This document shows, one piece after another, positions 563 to 21,892 of a DNA stretch of 32,802 bases (the first letter of the stretch is position 1; each line of letters begins with the position of its first letter). Source of the stretch: a virus; the IMG/VR virus record IMGVR_UViG_3300035698_000795, positions 1-32,802 of that record; one strand, given 5' to 3'. The position numbers and the translations under genes were made by a program. Below the pieces are notes generated by a model. That model saw nothing but the letters and a program-made list of their open reading frames with translations, did not search any database and had not been told where the DNA came from.

Positions 563-3283
563 GTGACTAAGACAGAAGCAATTAAGGCATTCTTGGTTCA
601 TGCTACACGCGCCGATCTAGCATCAAAATATCATGCTGGTATGGAGTGCCAAGTTAATGTGGCACAGGATGAAGGAGAGCGTGTGGAGGGTGAGTTTCAA
701 GGTAAAGGTTGGCACGGTTGGTCAGATGGATTGACCACTTGGAAGTCGTTCCGTGTACCTTGGAAAGCTAATACGCACCCAGAGTTTAAGGACTCACGTA
801 TGACGTATGATCTGTCTGCCCACGCCGATGCTATAGGTATGACGGGGTGGTGCTGGACAGATAAAGTTTCTAAGTGGGTAGCATTCGATTTCGATGCTAT
901 CATTGGACATAGCGACAGGCATCAGAAGAAGCTAACCTCAGAAGAAATGGGTAATCTCGTATCTGCCGCCAAACTGGTACCGTGGGTCACGATCCGTAGG
1001 AGCACGTCAGGCACAGGCATACACTTGTACGTTGATGTGAACGATGTACCTACAGCCAATCACACCGAACACGCCGCACTCGCCCGATCTATCCTGAGCA
1101 AACTCAGTGCAGTAACAGGCTATGACTTCGATTCAAAAGTCGACAACTGCGGCGGTAACATGTGGGTATGGGCGCGTAAGATGATGGGTACGAACGGGCT
1201 GACCATCATCAAGAAGGGTGAGCCACTAGTTGATCTGCCGATAAATTGGCGAGACCATGTAAATGTTATCACGAAAAAACGTCGGCAAATTTCAGTGCAG
1301 GGATTGCCAGATACTCAAGAGGAGGACTTCGAGCGCATCGTATCGCATCACACGTACGTACCATTGGACGAGTCGCACAAAGCGTTGATGCAGTACTTCA
1401 TAGATCATAGCCTTCTATGGTGGTGGGATCAGGATCATCATATGTTAGTGACCCATACACAACATTTGAAAGAAGCTCATGAAGAACTCAACATGATTGG
1501 GCACTACGAAACCAATTCAAAAGGATCTAATACTGACGAACAGAATTGCTTCGCGTTCCCGCGTCGGCGTGGTGCATGGCTCGTGCGCCGCTTTACACGT
1601 GGTGTCGAGGAAGACAACTACTGGACGCAGGATAACTCAGGATGGACGTTCTGCCACTATAACGTGATTCCGGATCTACCGACGATGGCCAGAGCCTTTG
1701 GCGGCATAGAAAATAAGAAAGGTGGGTTCGAGTTCCGTGAAGCTGAGATCGCCCTCGACGTCCTGAAGAAGCTCGGTCAAGATGTTTCACTCCCGCGCAC
1801 CATGCGCCTTAGGCACACGACGCTTACGCCCACTAAGGACGGTAGGATTAGTGTCGAGGTTAAGCGTGATCCAAGCGACAACTTCGACGGTATGAGTGGT
1901 TGGCTCTCTGACCCCAAGAAGGATTGGCTTCAGATAGTTAATGTACAGCAACAACAGGGTGATGCTATTGAGCACGAAGACTTTGACGATTCGATCCGGC
2001 ACTTGATAACAGGTGCTGACGAGGATTCTGGTTGGGTACTCTGTTCAGAAGGACGCTGGAACCATGAACCACTTACACACATCAAAGCTGTCATGGCCTC
2101 GTTAGGTCTACAACATAAGGAGATTAATGGTGTTATTGGATCAAGTATTCTTAAGCCTTGGAAGCTTGTTACTCTACCCTTCCAACCAGAGTACCCTGGC
2201 GATAGAGTCTGGAATAAAGGTGCTCCACAGTTTCAGTTCGCTGCGACCCAAGATGACGAAGAGCTTAACTACCCGACGTGGCTCAAGATCTTGGAACATT
2301 GCGGCACATCGCTTGATGATGGTGTCGCGGATCATGAGTGGTGTAAGTTTAATGGAATTACCAAGGGCGCAGACTATCTCAAATGTTGGGTTGCCTCGTT
2401 GTTCCAATATCCTGATAGACCACTACCATATCTGTTCATGTACGGGCCGCAGAATAGCGGTAAGTCGATCTTTCACGAAGCCCTTGGTCTACTAATTACG
2501 AAAGGATATATTAATGCTGAAGCTGCGCTGGTCAGTGGATCACGATTCAATGCTGAGCTTGAAGGAGCTTTACTTTGTATACTCGAAGAAGTTGACTTGC
2601 GGAAGAACAAGACAGCATACAACCGTATCAAGGATTGGGTCACCTCGCGCAATATGCTTATCCACCCGAAAGGACGTACACCCTATCAGGTTACGAACAC
2701 TACTCACTGGGTGCATGACGCGAATGACTCAAAGTCCTGTCCGGTCTTCGCGGGTGATACTCGGATCACCATGTTACACGTTGACACGCTCGACCCGAAG
2801 GAACTGATCCCGAAGCATCGTATTGAACAGCTCCTAACCAGAGAGGCTAGTGACTTCATAGCCGCGCTCCTGAAGCTAGAGCTTCCTGAGTCGTCAGACA
2901 GGCTGAACGTACCAGTCATTGAGACCTCTGACAAGGCGCGTACACAAGAGTCGAATATGAACGACCTCGAACTGTTCCTTCACGAGAAGACAGAACACGC
3001 TGTAGGTTACATGATCTATTTTGACGAGTTCTACGACAGGTTCATCAACTTCTTAGATCCGGGCGCTGTATATGATTGGGCAAGACGTAAGGTTAGCATG
3101 GGTCTACCGGCTGATATTCTTAAGGCCAAGTATACGCATGACAATCGTGTTGCCCTAGGGAATATTAAGTTCCGTCACGATCCAGACGTGTCACCACCGA
3201 TGCGTGTGCCTGAACGAGTCTGTGACTTGTTCGTGGAGCGTGACAATGCATTAATAGCAACCAAAGAAGGACGGAGAGTATGA
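563..3283 (+). CDS. Phage primase-helicase (AEP-like primase plus SF3-like helicase)
   Basis: A 906-residue replication protein with two parts. The N-terminal part looks like an archaeo-eukaryotic primase/primase-polymerase: the acidic motif F-D-F-D at 108-111, S-G-T-G-I-H at 149-154 and a further Asp-rich segment near 188-194 fit the metal-binding and nucleotide-binding motifs. The C-terminal part is a superfamily-3/D5-like helicase: Walker A GPQNSGKS at 628-635, Walker B ending CILEEVD at 672-678, and a motif-C-like segment around 713-736 with GDTRI. It would unwind the fork and lay down primers for phage DNA synthesis. The start is GTG at 563, chosen for the AGAGGAAGGA site upstream. It heads the rightward operon and overlaps the next gene by 4 bp. 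The domain assignment is confident; primer-polymerase details are inference. Confidence 0.88.
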   Translation: MTKTEAIKAFLVHATRADLASKYHAGMECQVNVAQDEGERVEGEFQGKGWHGWSDGLTTWKSFRVPWKANTHPEFKDSRMTYDLSAHADAIGMTGWCWTDKVSKWVAFDFDAIIGHSDRHQKKLTSEEMGNLVSAAKLVPWVTIRRSTSGTGIHLYVDVNDVPTANHTEHAALARSILSKLSAVTGYDFDSKVDNCGGNMWVWARKMMGTNGLTIIKKGEPLVDLPINWRDHVNVITKKRRQISVQGLPDTQEEDFERIVSHHTYVPLDESHKALMQYFIDHSLLWWWDQDHHMLVTHTQHLKEAHEELNMIGHYETNSKGSNTDEQNCFAFPRRRGAWLVRRFTRGVEEDNYWTQDNSGWTFCHYNVIPDLPTMARAFGGIENKKGGFEFREAEIALDVLKKLGQDVSLPRTMRLRHTTLTPTKDGRISVEVKRDPSDNFDGMSGWLSDPKKDWLQIVNVQQQQGDAIEHEDFDDSIRHLITGADEDSGWVLCSEGRWNHEPLTHIKAVMASLGLQHKEINGVIGSSILKPWKLVTLPFQPEYPGDRVWNKGAPQFQFAATQDDEELNYPTWLKILEHCGTSLDDGVADHEWCKFNGITKGADYLKCWVASLFQYPDRPLPYLFMYGPQNSGKSIFHEALGLLITKGYINAEAALVSGSRFNAELEGALLCILEEVDLRKNKTAYNRIKDWVTSRNMLIHPKGRTPYQVTNTTHWVHDANDSKSCPVFAGDTRITMLHVDTLDPKELIPKHRIEQLLTREASDFIAALLKLELPESSDRLNVPVIETSDKARTQESNMNDLELFLHEKTEHAVGYMIYFDEFYDRFINFLDPGAVYDWARRKVSMGLPADILKAKYTHDNRVALGNIKFRHDPDVSPPMRVPERVCDLFVERDNALIATKEGRRV

Positions 3284-15918: not shown

Positions 15919-18900
15919 CTAGTAGATCCTCCCACGGCCACCGACTTTGACTAGTCCGCGACTCATAGCTTTGTTAATTCCGTTTGCCATTCTGCGCATA
16001 TCAACTTGTTCGTTATTGACTGCGTTCATATGCTGTGTACTATTAAATGTTACATTCTGACGTGTTGTACTTGGATTAAACATACCGTTGATCCTATCCA
16101 TTAGCGCGCCCATAGGTGTTTGAATCGGTCCAGGCACACTAGCCACAGGCTTATCAATCAGATGACCTAGCGCAGTAACAGTATCAGCCGTATTAATAGC
16201 TGTAAGCTCATCGTACGTCAGACCTTGCGCATTAAGTTCATTAGCAGTATAATTAAGACGTAACGTGTCAGTTCTTGTTTTACGTAACTCGTCTAATTGC
16301 TTTTGACTCAAGTTACTATTGTCTGTGACCACTGTTTTCTGTTCAGATAATACGTTGTCACGTATAGCGATCCCTAGTGCATCACTAACAGTATCAAGTA
16401 GACCAGCCATGTCAGCATTAGTTTGTTTACCGAAATATTCATGCCCGACTAATTGCCGTATTTCATCAACAATAACTAATGCCGCTTGCTGACCCTCCGT
16501 ATTACTTGGATTATCTACTACAGAGCGTAACGTATCTTTTAACAAATGCATGATACGTATAGTTTCTTGATCTGTTTGGAATTTACCGCCTTGACCCGTA
16601 TCTGCACCTGCTAGCACAGCATCATAGACAGCATTATACATTTCACCTTGTCCAGCACCAAAGAATTTACCTATGCTGAAATCGAATGAACTTTCTACTT
16701 CAGCAGTAAGCTCACGTATAGGTGAAAACACAAGTTCTGAATTCTTCTGTTTAGCCTGTAATTCAGCCATGGCTCTGAGACGTAATTCGCTATCAAACTT
16801 AATCGCATCTGTAGCCACATCGCGAGCATATTCTGCCTGTAATTTCGCTTTATACGCTTCTGTCTCGTCAATTAGCGCCTTCTCCATGGCAACCAAATGT
16901 GGGTAGTTATCAATATTCTGGCCAGTTGACTCTAATAACTCAGCTAATCCTTTGAACACATTAATCGCGCCATCAGTATAACTACCGAAGGAAGTCATTA
17001 ACGAATTATGTACGTTCTCCTGAGCTGCTACTAACTTATCATTAGCATCTGAGAATGGCTGTGCATACGTTTCTTCAAACTTTCCTCTATCGGCAACAGT
17101 GCGTTCTATTAGTGAATTTTTATAATCAGCACCCGTAGGTTGGAACTCTGTAATATCAAAGTCCTTAATCATATCCATGTATTCTTGGATCTTCACATTA
17201 CGTTCTTCTGCGAACGCGATCTCTTCTTTCAACGCATCAGCTTTATCAGCTTCTGCAGTGGCCACTATACCTTGTAATCTGGCCTGTTCAATATCCATGT
17301 CAACAATACGTCTACGATGCCAGTCAATGACCTTGTAGCTAGCGCCTTGATTCTTCAACATTTCAAGCTGATCCACTAAGCCCTTGTACATTATGTCAAA
17401 GTTCTTCTGCCAATCTACACCTTGCCCCGCTTGGAAGGCGTCAGTGGCTTGGTCACTAAAATGCTGGATCTTTTGTTCATACAACTTACCTTGATCATTA
17501 AGTGTCCGAGCCATTACGTTCGCACGATCCTGATAACCCCGCTTAATCTGCTGATCAAAGAATCCAGCAGCATTATAATCACCGTTCTGTCTGGCCTTCT
17601 GCAGATTACTCTCAGCCTGTTTTATGAAGTTGTCAATATCTTTTAAGGCTCTAGTCGAGTCGGCATCTTCAAGATCAAACTGGAATATGGATTCCATTGG
17701 GCCTTGCTCAATATCGTCCATAGCGTCTCTGGCTTTGTTGAACAAATCTACAGCACCGCTGAGTTGATCATTCAAAGAATCAAGCTCATTATTTAAGTCT
17801 AACGCAATATCTTGTTCAACATATTTAATCTTCTCCGCTAACTCTTCATACATTTCAACGCGATCATTAACAGACTTCTGTGTATCAGCAACTTCTTGTG
17901 CCAGTATTTCCGAGTGGTCACGCAGTAGTTCATTACCGACTTTAGTCCGTTCTTTAATCTCTTGTTTATATTCCATAAGCAACAGATTATTACGATCTGC
18001 TACAGCTTTAGCCATTGCGGCTGTTGTTTCTTCAACAGCTTGTTTTCTTTCCCTCTCAGCCGCCGCCATTTTGTACATGATATACAACATGGCCGTAAGC
18101 CCAATTATTAACCCGCCAGTCTTCAGCGTAAGAATAGTCATAGAATGGTTCATCTTGCGGAATGCCTGTATAGCTAATACACCTACAGCCGGTATTACAC
18201 CGGTATATGTTACCTGCACTAAATGTTCTAGTGCAAAAGTAAGTGCCTCAGCACCTTGTGATGCTATAACTAGATCGTCAACAAAGGCCGTACCTAGATC
18301 AGCGGCAAACACGTTAGCGATCTTGTTCTGTGCGATCTCGATCTTTTTACCTTGGTTCTCAAGGACAATCTCTGTGGCCCTCCCATAGGAGGCCATAGCA
18401 TTTTCAATAGCTTCAAGATTCTTAATGTACTTCTTAAGGCCCTTACCACTAAGAGCTAGTGCACCAGTAATACCACGAATACGATTAACTAACTTAGCCG
18501 TTTCAGAAGCACTACCGCGAGTGTGCTTATACATTTCCTGTAACAGGCCGCTGAAGCCATAGATTGCTACAGCCTGTTCACCTGTAGTGACACCCATCTT
18601 ACCAAAGATCTCATTCATGGACTCGGTTGGTTTCAACAATTTAAGCATGATACCACGTAACTGTGTATTAGCTTTACTGAACGACACACCCTGAATAGTC
18701 AATGTAGCAATCGCGGCTTGTAATTCGTTCAGACTGATCCCAAGCTGTGACGCGATAACAGCCACGTCACCAATCGACGTTGCCATATCCGTAATACGCA
18801 CACGACCAAGTTCAACAGTCTTGAACCATGATGCTGACACATTTGCCGCTTCAGACACGTTCATATTGTACGCGTTCAATGTGGCTGTCAACAGGAGCGT

Positions 18901-20100
18901 AGCGTCACTGACACTAGTGACCCCTACAGCAGCTAACTGATTCGCTTGATCTACAAAAGTGAGAATATCTGCGCCTTCAGCGATCTGATTTGACAGTGCC
19001 TGATATGCCGCTTCAACCTGAGTAGTTATGTCATTACCCCAAGTATCCGACACAGCACGTAGTCCAGCTATCCACTGGAGCGTTGTCAACTGAGCATCTT
19101 GGGATATTGTCTGGACTTCAGAAATAGACTTGTATAACTGCTTCGTGTTCTCAACACCTTCAGCTATAGCCCCAGACATTGCAGAAATCGCTCTATGGAT
19201 ACTTTGTACAGCAACCAAACGCGCCATAGTCTGCCAAGAGAGGAGTAGTCCTTCTGATTCACCCTTCAACTTCTTCATGGCGGTATCAACAGCAGTTACC
19301 TCTGCTGCCATACCCTTCTTAGTCTGAGTCAGTCGTTCGTTATAGTGTGCCTTTAATTGTGCTTTACTGAAACCTAGGTACTCTTCTTCTTTATTAAGTA
19401 ATTTACGTAGGTGATTCTTTAGTACTACTGAGGCTTTTTGATTAGCTTTCTGTATAAAGTTGTCAGCTAATCTAGACGCTTGTTTATCTTGGTGTAATTT
19501 TGCGTCACTAGCTGTTTTAGCCTTAGCTATACCGTCTTGTAGCGTCTGCGTATTTTTGAGTGTAGCGGCATCACGTATAGCCTGTTCTTCATCGGCGTTC
19601 TTTTTGTAACCTTCACGTAATTGCTGAAAATTCTTGTCGCGGATCGCTTCCTGTTTCTGTCGATATTCTCTTAAGCGTTGCGTCTTATCTTCTTGAGCTT
19701 TCTTCTCAATGCCGGCAATTTCTTTTGCTTCATCTTTAGCGGTCTTGGTATCATCAGAAGGTGATTGTAAGACAGTAGCTGAACTATGTTTAGTTAGTTC
19801 ATCAACGCCCCTACCTGTGACCCTGAACGTGGCATTCAGTGCATCACCCGCCTTAGTCATTTCATTTAATTCACCGGTGACACGTGGCATTGCGCCAGCC
19901 AGATTACCGAATGCTAGATCAAGACTACCTACATCCTTAAGTGTCACTTTGGCTGTAGTAGTAAAACCACCTTCAGGATTAGCGGTCTCTAATACCTTAA
20001 TGGTCTCGATCATGGAGTTACGCATCGCGTCAGAGGCTTTACCGGTCTTGACCGCCTCTCTAGAGATGTCCACTAGTGACCGTAGTATCTTATTTTCCAT
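15919..20100 (-). CDS. Tail tape measure protein, 1393 aa
   Basis: The longest gene in the window. It is rich in charged coiled coil: residues about 120-290 are K/E/Q/R-rich helix. A TP901-type tape-measure core lies at about 310-520, including a conserved run of A-N-Q-L-A-A-V-G-V-T and M-A-T-S-I-G-D-V-A. Two hydrophobic segments (about 635-655 and 662-682) are typical of the pore- or membrane-interacting part used in DNA ejection. Long helical stretches follow to the end. It sets tail length; at the usual rough 0.15 nm per residue it would suggest a tail near 200 nm, which is inference. It overlaps the preceding stop by 1 base (TAATG). Confidence 0.93.
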   Translation of the reverse strand: MENKILRSLVDISREAVKTGKASDAMRNSMIETIKVLETANPEGGFTTTAKVTLKDVGSLDLAFGNLAGAMPRVTGELNEMTKAGDALNATFRVTGRGVDELTKHSSATVLQSPSDDTKTAKDEAKEIAGIEKKAQEDKTQRLREYRQKQEAIRDKNFQQLREGYKKNADEEQAIRDAATLKNTQTLQDGIAKAKTASDAKLHQDKQASRLADNFIQKANQKASVVLKNHLRKLLNKEEEYLGFSKAQLKAHYNERLTQTKKGMAAEVTAVDTAMKKLKGESEGLLLSWQTMARLVAVQSIHRAISAMSGAIAEGVENTKQLYKSISEVQTISQDAQLTTLQWIAGLRAVSDTWGNDITTQVEAAYQALSNQIAEGADILTFVDQANQLAAVGVTSVSDATLLLTATLNAYNMNVSEAANVSASWFKTVELGRVRITDMATSIGDVAVIASQLGISLNELQAAIATLTIQGVSFSKANTQLRGIMLKLLKPTESMNEIFGKMGVTTGEQAVAIYGFSGLLQEMYKHTRGSASETAKLVNRIRGITGALALSGKGLKKYIKNLEAIENAMASYGRATEIVLENQGKKIEIAQNKIANVFAADLGTAFVDDLVIASQGAEALTFALEHLVQVTYTGVIPAVGVLAIQAFRKMNHSMTILTLKTGGLIIGLTAMLYIMYKMAAAERERKQAVEETTAAMAKAVADRNNLLLMEYKQEIKERTKVGNELLRDHSEILAQEVADTQKSVNDRVEMYEELAEKIKYVEQDIALDLNNELDSLNDQLSGAVDLFNKARDAMDDIEQGPMESIFQFDLEDADSTRALKDIDNFIKQAESNLQKARQNGDYNAAGFFDQQIKRGYQDRANVMARTLNDQGKLYEQKIQHFSDQATDAFQAGQGVDWQKNFDIMYKGLVDQLEMLKNQGASYKVIDWHRRRIVDMDIEQARLQGIVATAEADKADALKEEIAFAEERNVKIQEYMDMIKDFDITEFQPTGADYKNSLIERTVADRGKFEETYAQPFSDANDKLVAAQENVHNSLMTSFGSYTDGAINVFKGLAELLESTGQNIDNYPHLVAMEKALIDETEAYKAKLQAEYARDVATDAIKFDSELRLRAMAELQAKQKNSELVFSPIRELTAEVESSFDFSIGKFFGAGQGEMYNAVYDAVLAGADTGQGGKFQTDQETIRIMHLLKDTLRSVVDNPSNTEGQQAALVIVDEIRQLVGHEYFGKQTNADMAGLLDTVSDALGIAIRDNVLSEQKTVVTDNSNLSQKQLDELRKTRTDTLRLNYTANELNAQGLTYDELTAINTADTVTALGHLIDKPVASVPGPIQTPMGALMDRINGMFNPSTTRQNVTFNSTQHMNAVNNEQVDMRRMANGINKAMSRGLVKVGGRGRIY

Positions 20101-20657
20101 TAGAACGTGCTCCCTGTAAGCGCCAAACTATAAATTTGTTCTGCGAAATCTTCAAACAACTTATGCCACTTATCATCAAACGCTTTCCTGGCCTTAGGTA
20201 ATATTTGATCTATCCAACTTGATGCTGGAGGACTCGCCAGATTATTCTCATTTAGGTAGAATTGTAGTACCTTGATATCAAATAGAAAATGAAACACTGG
20301 ATTACTTGGTGATCCATATTCTATTTCATAGCAAGATTCACCTATACGTACACCTAAGTCATAAGACTTAAGTTGACCAGTACCTTCTCGGAACTTAGGT
20401 GTCTTAGAGTAATACTTCTTTGGTGCTTTGTTACGCATAGCCGCACGTACTAGGTTACGTGCGCCTACACGATCTGCTAAAGGTTGCATTTGACCCAGAG
20501 ACATCCCTGAGTCTACGACGATAGATTCAACAACTATGTCGACAAACACCTTGATACAGTCATCCCAAATATCTTGTAACTTAGTATGTATAATACCAGC
20601 TACATCAACGCTAGTGCCATTGATAATTTGGTCTACTGTGACTCTACCTTTAGGCAT
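20100..20657 (-). CDS. Tail-completion-like protein between chaperone and tape measure, 185 aa
   Basis: An alpha/beta protein. The basic central part (about 70-100, with R-N-K-A-P-K-K-Y-Y-S-K and T-G-Q-L-K-S) is loosely reminiscent of HK97-gp10-like head-tail joining proteins, which often carry an R-A-P-x-x-T-G-x-L-x-x-S motif. The gene sits between the tail chaperones and the tape measure, an unusual place for gp10-like proteins, so the match is weak. GGAGG lies five bases before the ATG, and a 12-bp hairpin lies just upstream. Its structural role is inferred from position. Confidence 0.6.
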   Translation of the reverse strand: MPKGRVTVDQIINGTSVDVAGIIHTKLQDIWDDCIKVFVDIVVESIVVDSGMSLGQMQPLADRVGARNLVRAAMRNKAPKKYYSKTPKFREGTGQLKSYDLGVRIGESCYEIEYGSPSNPVFHFLFDIKVLQFYLNENNLASPPASSWIDQILPKARKAFDDKWHKLFEDFAEQIYSLALTGSTF

Positions 20658-20669
20658 TTAATCCTCCGT

Positions 20670-20697
20670 ATGATGGCTACATCCTTGTAGCCATCAT
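20670..20697 (-). repeat. 12-bp hairpin between the chaperone and the next gene
   Basis: ATGATGGCTACA and its exact complement close a 4-nt loop. The stem begins inside the last codons of the frameshift product and contains its stop codon (20677-20679). It is not followed by a U-run on the transcribed strand, so it is not a standard terminator. It may slow ribosomes, block RNA decay, or adjust expression between chaperone and tape measure genes. Confidence 0.6.
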
Positions 20698-21341
20698 TAG
20701 TTCAACTTCATCATTTGATCTAACTCTATCATAACCTAGTAGTAGAGCTTGACTTCGCGATGTATTTTCTATCCAGTTAGGCTTCACATTCGGAGGCATT
20801 ATTCCGTATCGTTCACAGGCTCTCCAGATGGAGTAGAGTCCTGATCGCTGTTTAGGATACGTAACTTCTCTGCTTCCTGTGCCGCCTGACCAGCTAAAAA
20901 ACGCTCGGTTGCTTCTTCAACATCATCGTCACTAAGACCATTAGCCTTAATAACCAACATAATCAATCGTGACGCGTGTTTATCACCAAAGAATTGCATA
21001 AGCTCATCTTTCGCGTTGGCCCACGTGTCCGGTATCAGCATGTCAACATTAGCCCATTCAACACCTTCGGGAAGGACTATACTATTGACAAACATCCAAT
21101 CTGAATGATGGTTAACATAAACATCCATCTTTTCCTTGTAGCTTGCGTTTTCCAGATCAGGCTCTTTAATATCGCCTGGAAGTATACGGATAGGAACTTT
21201 CGGGCGAGGGCAAAGCTCGTTGAATCCGTCATAGTTCTCAATAGCTTTCGCCTTGAAAACGAACTCCTTGTCACCTCTCGGAATAACAAGCAACTCGAAA
21301 TGCGGCGCAAAGTCTGTTGCATTAACACCATTAATAATCAT
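20677..21341 (-). CDS. Tail assembly chaperone, long form made by -1 frameshift (lambda GT-like), 221 aa
   Basis: Translation starts at 21341, proceeds for 149 residues, slips back one base on TTTTTTA (20895-20901), and continues for 72 residues in the -1 frame to a TAG at 20677-20679. The extra domain is open throughout and reads L-Y-S-I-W-R-A-C-E-R-Y-G-I-M-P-P-N-V before W-I-E-N-T-S-R-S-Q-A-L-L-L-G-Y, the pattern typical of the T part of siphophage G/GT chaperones. The long form bridges tape measure and tail tube during assembly. The ATG at 20799 in the same frame might also allow independent initiation of a 40-residue piece. Frameshifting is inferred from sequence and is well known in this family. 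Confidence 0.85.
20799..21341 (-). CDS. Tail assembly chaperone, short form (lambda G-like), 180 aa
   Basis: The unshifted product. It has a mixed alpha/beta N-terminus and a helical end (about 110-160, including A-T-E-R-F-L-A-G-Q-A-A-Q-E-A-E), the usual profile of G-type tail chaperones, which coat the tape measure. It lies between the tail-tube candidate and the tape measure, as in lambda. The start overlaps the tail-tube stop by 4 bp (ATGA), with only a weak ribosome binding site, so it is probably translationally coupled. The last ~31 residues are encoded after the slip site and are absent from the long form. Confidence 0.85.
   Translation of the reverse strand: MIINGVNATDFAPHFELLVIPRGDKEFVFKAKAIENYDGFNELCPRPKVPIRILPGDIKEPDLENASYKEKMDVYVNHHSDWMFVNSIVLPEGVEWANVDMLIPDTWANAKDELMQFFGDKHASRLIMLVIKANGLSDDDVEEATERFLAGQAAQEAEKLRILNSDQDSTPSGEPVNDTE
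20895..20901 (-). promoter_or_regulatory. Programmed -1 frameshift site TTTTTTA
   Basis: On the coding strand the codons are CGT TTT TTA, giving the canonical X-XXY-YYZ heptamer (six T then A). It is positioned in codons 147-149 of the chaperone, with the -1 frame open for 72 codons beyond it. A short hairpin-forming stretch and purine-rich GAAGAAG lie upstream of the heptamer and may assist slippage. I see no strong downstream pseudoknot by eye. Confidence 0.85.
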
Positions 21342-21892
21342 GATGCAGCAGCCTCTCTAAGGGTGGTGATGGCGGTCACGTTGCATTTGCCTGTGATTGC
21401 CAGTGTACCAGCCTTGGTATCGAAAGCGATCTGTTCATAACGGAAGTCAGGAAGTGTGATCGTTTCGTTTGGTTTCGTCAACGTACCGGCACATGTCGGG
21501 ACGTATGCAATAATCAGGTCGACCGCGAACGGGCGACAACCATCTGCGTCGGTGGATACCCACGCGGAGGCCTGTCCAGTCTTGGACAGTGCTTCACGGA
21601 TAGAGGGGACTGCGGCTTCATCTGTTGCGTCAGACTTGATATAGATCCACTTGGCGTCAAGGGAGACGTCAACAGGTTCTTCATCAGCCAGACGTACATC
21701 ATCCAGTACACCACGATCGAGGAGATATTCAAGCGTACGCTTCTCGGTGAAGGTAAGATTACCTTCCCCGATACCAACCGTAATGTTCAACGGTGTCGTG
21801 GGCGTATTGTCTTGAATCTTGATCGTAGCCTGTTTCATGTCGATCTGAGCATACAGGCTCGGCCATGCCTCCAGAATACCAAAATGTAACAT
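21338..21892 (-). CDS. Major tail tube protein, 184 aa
   Basis: Position directly upstream of the chaperone gene and the length fit a tail tube subunit. The sequence has the beta-rich pattern of this family: an I-K-I-Q-D strand (23-27), G-E-G-N-L-T-F-T-E-K-R (42-52), Y-L-L-D-R-G (56-61), P-V-D-V-S-L-D-A-K-W (73-82), and a C-terminal L-P-D-F-R-Y-E-Q-I strand. It would polymerise around the tape measure to form the tube. The start at 21892 is preferred over a downstream ATG at 21838 because GGAGG lies seven bases before the first. It shares its A with the upstream stop (TAATG). Confidence 0.8.
   Translation of the reverse strand: MLHFGILEAWPSLYAQIDMKQATIKIQDNTPTTPLNITVGIGEGNLTFTEKRTLEYLLDRGVLDDVRLADEEPVDVSLDAKWIYIKSDATDEAAVPSIREALSKTGQASAWVSTDADGCRPFAVDLIIAYVPTCAGTLTKPNETITLPDFRYEQIAFDTKAGTLAITGKCNVTAITTLREAAAS

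Follow-up and report, generated by a model that had tools for sequence, protein, structure and literature searches.

A conserved -1 slippery site in a candidate G/GT tail-assembly chaperone gene from a family of uncultured tailed phages

The G/GT frameshift is conserved in dsDNA tailed phages, including the gpG/gpGT pair of lambda (review PMC5009743). Both lambda products bind the tape measure protein through their G part, and the longer one binds the tube subunit through its T part (PMC5009743). This device is already known in many tailed phages; the sequence family described here is new. The DNA analysed, referred to as the window, comprises positions 1 to 32,802 (32,802 nt) of the IMG/VR record IMGVR_UViG_3300035698_000795, which belongs to an uncultured tailed phage. 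One gene of the window very probably yields two tail-assembly chaperones, G and GT, by -1 ribosomal slippage on T_TTT_TTA.

The slip site and its gene neighbourhood

The virion genes of the window lie in a run on the minus strand, from the portal through the tape measure. The features are as follows.

32658-30934, minus strand: portal
Minus strand: scaffold and major head protein, from a profile search of the window, with small genes between these and the probable tail tube
21338..21892, minus strand: probable tail tube protein, named by position
20799..21341, minus strand: G, putative tail assembly chaperone, zero-frame ORF of 180 aa plus stop
20902..20921, minus strand: site of the upstream Shine-Dalgarno-like element GA(T/A/G)GAGGC, weak in the window (GAAGAAGC)
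20895..20901, minus strand: slippery heptamer T_TTT_TTA, G codons 147-149
20677..20895, minus strand: T, -1 frame extension, 72 codons plus stop
20677..20799, minus strand: ATG ORF of 40 codons, equal to the C-terminal part of T, with a TAATG overlap with the G stop
20100..20657, minus strand: 185-aa protein between GT and the tape measure
15919..20100, minus strand: tape measure protein (phrog_991, E 9e-28; PhageMin_Tail of Pfam, E 7e-23)

A slippery site in register was found near the end of the G gene, with the shifted frame open beyond it. Counted from 0, TTTTTTA begins at base 440 of the gene, which is the third base of codon 147, and codons 148-149 are TTT TTA (Phe-Leu), giving the canonical X_XXY_YYZ register for a -1 shift. 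The heptamer in this register at codons 147-149, first pointed out in a sequence-only reading, was confirmed at 20901-20895 on the minus strand. In-register X_XXY_YYZ heptamers are found just eight times across 28 genes of the window, and among these TTTTTTA is present only in G. After the slip, the -1 frame reads SWSGGTGSREVTYPKQRSGLYSIWRACERYGIMPPNVKPNWIENTSRSQALLLGYDRVRSNDEVELMMATRM (72 aa), and its stop ends at 20677. The same reading had placed all 72 open codons past the zero-frame stop; their number is correct, but it is counted from the slip, since the zero frame continues for 31 codons beyond the slip and the -1 frame reaches 41 codons beyond the zero-frame stop. Upstream of the slip, the -1 frame is closed by a stop only 7 codons away, which rules out a long independent ORF for T.

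On the proposed mechanism, most ribosomes would terminate at the zero-frame stop and release G (180 aa), whereas some would slip back by one base on T_TTT_TTA and produce GT, a fusion of 221 aa made of G codons 1-149 and the 72-codon T. This would be a two-tRNA slippage, in which the P-site Phe-tRNA and the A-site Leu-tRNA re-pair on TTT TTT. If the two products act as in lambda, the tape measure protein would be coated by G, and the T part of GT would capture tube subunits and initiate their polymerisation around the tape measure.

The position of the gene is in line with these predicted roles. G/GT lies between the tail tube, named by its position, and the tape measure, named by profile. The product of the tube gene itself matches nothing in PHROGs or Pfam; tblastn with the window's protein found a homologue in 69 loci, and in 68 of these relatives it is directly upstream of G/GT. 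The tape measure was downstream of G/GT in all 53 loci where tblastn detected it, and the gene order common to the relatives is tube - G/GT - X - tape measure. At the place of X, an ORF of similar size to the window's 185-aa gene comes after T (median 184 aa, 56 loci), and 33 loci match the window's own protein by tblastn.

With regard to this 185-aa gene (20100-20657), its homologues weakly match tail-completion/Neck1 profiles (phrog_169, E 0.0055; HK97-gp10_like, E 0.096). The protein is perhaps a tail-completion (HK97 gp10-like) protein; if it is, its place between GT and the tape measure is unusual. Elsewhere in the window, a 906-aa protein (563-3283, plus strand) carries a DUF5906 domain (E 1.8e-15), has a weak VapE-like match and is perhaps a primase/helicase.

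Conservation of the heptamer and of the shifted frame

Searches with the window's fusion found 12 relatives in IMG/VR and no match among cultured phages; the single match among genome contigs (L025) was discarded as a chance match to another frame of an epimerase-like gene. With an alignment of the G parts, 186 relatives were found in one IMG/VR scan, and the known G/GT device thereby gains a widespread environmental family. The best 80 of the 186 were fetched for comparison. Once near copies and truncated contigs had been taken out, a non-redundant set of 70 loci remained, namely the window and 69 loci from IMG/VR; one copy of the window (L013) is represented in this set by the window itself.

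Before near copies were removed, TTTTTTA was present at the homologous aligned place in 69 of about 85 loci. In the non-redundant set, the site is TTTTTTA in 58 loci, TTTTCTA in four, TTTTTTG in three, TTTTATA in two, and TTTTCTT, GTTTTTA and TTTCTTA in one each. From the codon usage of the same G genes, about 1.4 TTTTTTA sites would be predicted among the 70 loci. Because one search pattern of the two required the peptide FL at the slip place, the presence of Phe-Leu is partly selected, while the choice of codons is not. Loss of the heptamer in close relatives that keep both frames would have spoken against the frameshift; TTTTTTA is kept in 58 of 70 loci, and most of the others still carry T_TTY.

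The same counts bear on whether T could be made by transcriptional slippage on the six-T run instead of by ribosomal slippage. Most relatives share the run with the window, as this explanation needs, but it is broken in those with TTTTCTA, TTTCTTA, TTTTATA or TTTTCTT, and these retain the -1 frame at an unchanged place. Six T residues are moreover a short run for polymerase slippage, and we consider this origin of T highly improbable.

All 70 loci have an open -1 frame of 62 codons or more (median 75.5), and the zero-frame stop comes 6-41 codons after the slip. In a protein alignment of the 70 sequences, T residues R17, Y21, C27 and P34 are invariant, and P14, W24, E28, R29, W41, A50, R59 and E62 are nearly so. 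The AlphaFold2 model of T consists of two helices with a mean pLDDT of 89. The most conserved block, YSIWRACER, is upstream of the ATG that overlaps the TAA stop of G in the window, an overlap that could allow the C-terminal part of T to be made as a separate 40-aa protein by re-initiation. Only 16 of 70 loci, however, have a start codon 12 nt or less from the zero-frame stop, and only eight have one early enough for the whole conserved T domain. Re-initiation is accordingly even harder to credit than polymerase slippage, and the 40-codon ATG ORF at 20677..20799 is probably not a separate gene.

Ribosomal slippage, the preferred reading, also agrees with the substitution pattern. The pooled pN/pS was 0.33 in the -1 frame, whereas the zero and +1 frames gave 1.10 and 1.77, respectively, as estimated from 24 pairs at 68-99% DNA identity that share sequences and are not independent. 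Judged by these ratios, purifying selection acts on the -1 frame across the family, and the shifted frame is conserved as protein in the 70 non-redundant loci, as the sequence-only reading would require. This selection, together with the recurrence of the frame break at one and the same codon across dozens of independent contigs, leaves almost no room for the general possibility that the -1 frame is what is left of an in-frame gene that has decayed, or that it results from an error in the window's sequence.

Slip-site variants and the likely rate of shifting

The exact heptamer is lost in about one relative in six, and the departures from TTTTTTA need about eight changes on the GT tree. T_TTY is kept in 69 of 70 loci; the minimal -1 site is Z_ZZN (PMC5009743). 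Two supported tree groups, L102/L091/L103 and L070/L089, carry T_TTT_CTA or T_TTT_CTT, and L012 and L042 have TTTTATA at the slip place. In L102/L103 and L070/L089, the Leu tRNA should not re-pair, and P-site slippage would therefore have to suffice. The fusion in the -1 frame is kept at the non-canonical sites of L089, L070, L102, L103, L042 and L012; L091 has a canonical A_AAT_TTT one codon upstream of the slip place.

That distant relatives without the exact heptamer keep both frames fits a drift of the slip site and not an absence of shifting. A more specific reading is that the site moved several times, from T_TTT_TTA to T_TTT_CTA, T_TTT_ATA or T_TTT_CTT, where A-site re-pairing is not expected, and that the fusion was kept; if these sites still shift, P-site slippage alone suffices there. 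We put this forward tentatively, as a possibility that we would not yet favour. If it is true, the family is a natural series for the study of slip-site evolution, and its natural variants can be tested side by side.

Stimulatory elements were sought on both sides of the site. Across the family, the 60 nt downstream of the slip have a mean fold z of -0.88 versus -0.85 for the upstream control, and in the window the fold downstream of the slip is no better than that of shuffled sequences, as judged from pseudoknot-free folding. An upstream Shine-Dalgarno-like element is found in 64% of loci versus 20% of control stretches. The Glu residues at its place are, however, also conserved for the sake of the protein; GAG is the codon for 39 of 56 of them, versus 47% in the rest of G. 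No strong element of this kind is present upstream of the slip in the window, whose own copy is weak. In E. coli tests, T_TTT_TTA was less shift-prone than A_AAA_AAG (PMC5009743). Given this weaker heptamer, and a window with neither a detected downstream structure nor a strong Shine-Dalgarno-like element, the rate could be low; a modest frameshift rate is plausible.

Identity of the two products and comparison with known systems

The G of the window has no significant PHROG or Pfam match. No significant profile match to XkdN-like chaperones (PHROG 389) was obtained for the family either, the best phrog_389 match being non-significant (E 0.063, in two of the 70 members). The AlphaFold2 model of G is confident (pLDDT 92). 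Its best solved match is YqbN (3klu; Z 6.6, 97 residues, 3.2 A, 11% identity), the sole PDB match with Z >5 among the 475 chains compared, the runner-up reaching Z 3.2; as this Z is below 8, the likeness may be one of shared arrangement only. YqbN is a homologue of XkdN, a tail chaperone of PBSX. Foldseek gave no usable PDB match for the G model; in BFVD, nine of the first 25 matches are annotated as tail assembly chaperones, none of which reaches E 0.001. Taken with the position of the gene and the frameshift, the YqbN and BFVD matches are suggestive of a tail-chaperone fold in G.

With regard to T, no significant sequence or fold relative was found in PHROGs, Pfam, PDB or BFVD, and the extension thus showed no significant homology to a known tail chaperone. 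In the PHROG and Pfam searches with G and T, a few scattered family members gave E values of 0.001-0.01 to families of no known function. Searches of solved structures by sequence, with G and T as queries, returned just weak, unrelated matches, and Foldseek gave no usable match of the T model in BFVD. DNA-binding regulators were the only matches in a second structural alignment of the T model; with Z of 2.5 or less, they were rejected. The extension was first described as a recognisable T-type domain. Given these negative searches, the name T is drawn from the position of the extension, its linkage to G and its conservation across the family. On the evidence of the slip site, the conserved -1 frame and the gene neighbourhood, the earlier proposal of a G/GT-type tail chaperone pair is supported.

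The same reading had warned that standard annotation would miss the fusion, and this was borne out in kind by two cultured Nanhaivirus phages, Dinoroseobacter phage R26L (L104; PP882867.1, 54659-55431) and Pseudanabaena phage Pan1 (L105; ON968452.1, 22160-22928). Their -1 extensions, of 124 and 137 codons, are 51% identical to each other; R26L has the stretch annotated as a hypothetical protein by itself, and the Pan1 record carries no annotation for it. Frame-by-frame annotation would likewise overlook the long chaperone in all members of the present family, for which T_TTT_TTA followed by Y[AS]IWRACERxGIxPP, just upstream of the tape measure, can serve as an annotation pattern.

In comparison with XkdN/YqbN (PHROG 389; PDB 3klu), the G model matches the 3klu structure, at the low identity and sub-8 Z given above. 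The Nanhaivirus phages R26L and Pan1 resemble the window in having a related major head protein, and R26L also in its tape measure; like the window, they have a chaperone between tube and tape measure with a conserved -1 extension. Unlike in the window, the Nanhaivirus heptamer, in G_GGA_AAC_TGA at the end of the 'pre-tape measure chaperone' gene, sits directly before the stop, and the extension is 124-137 codons long; in the cultured-phage search, Nanhaivirus gave no detectable match to the window's G or T. Lambda G/GT differs from the family in four respects: the family has no detectable sequence kinship to annotated families, its heptamer is T_TTT_TTA, it has one more conserved gene between GT and the tape measure, and its zero-frame tail after the slip is very variable (6-41 codons). 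The arrangement is nevertheless that of lambda, with a tube gene, a chaperone gene carrying a -1 heptamer near its end and then the tape measure, a short and a predicted long product, and a slip site that is retained while the protein sequence changes.
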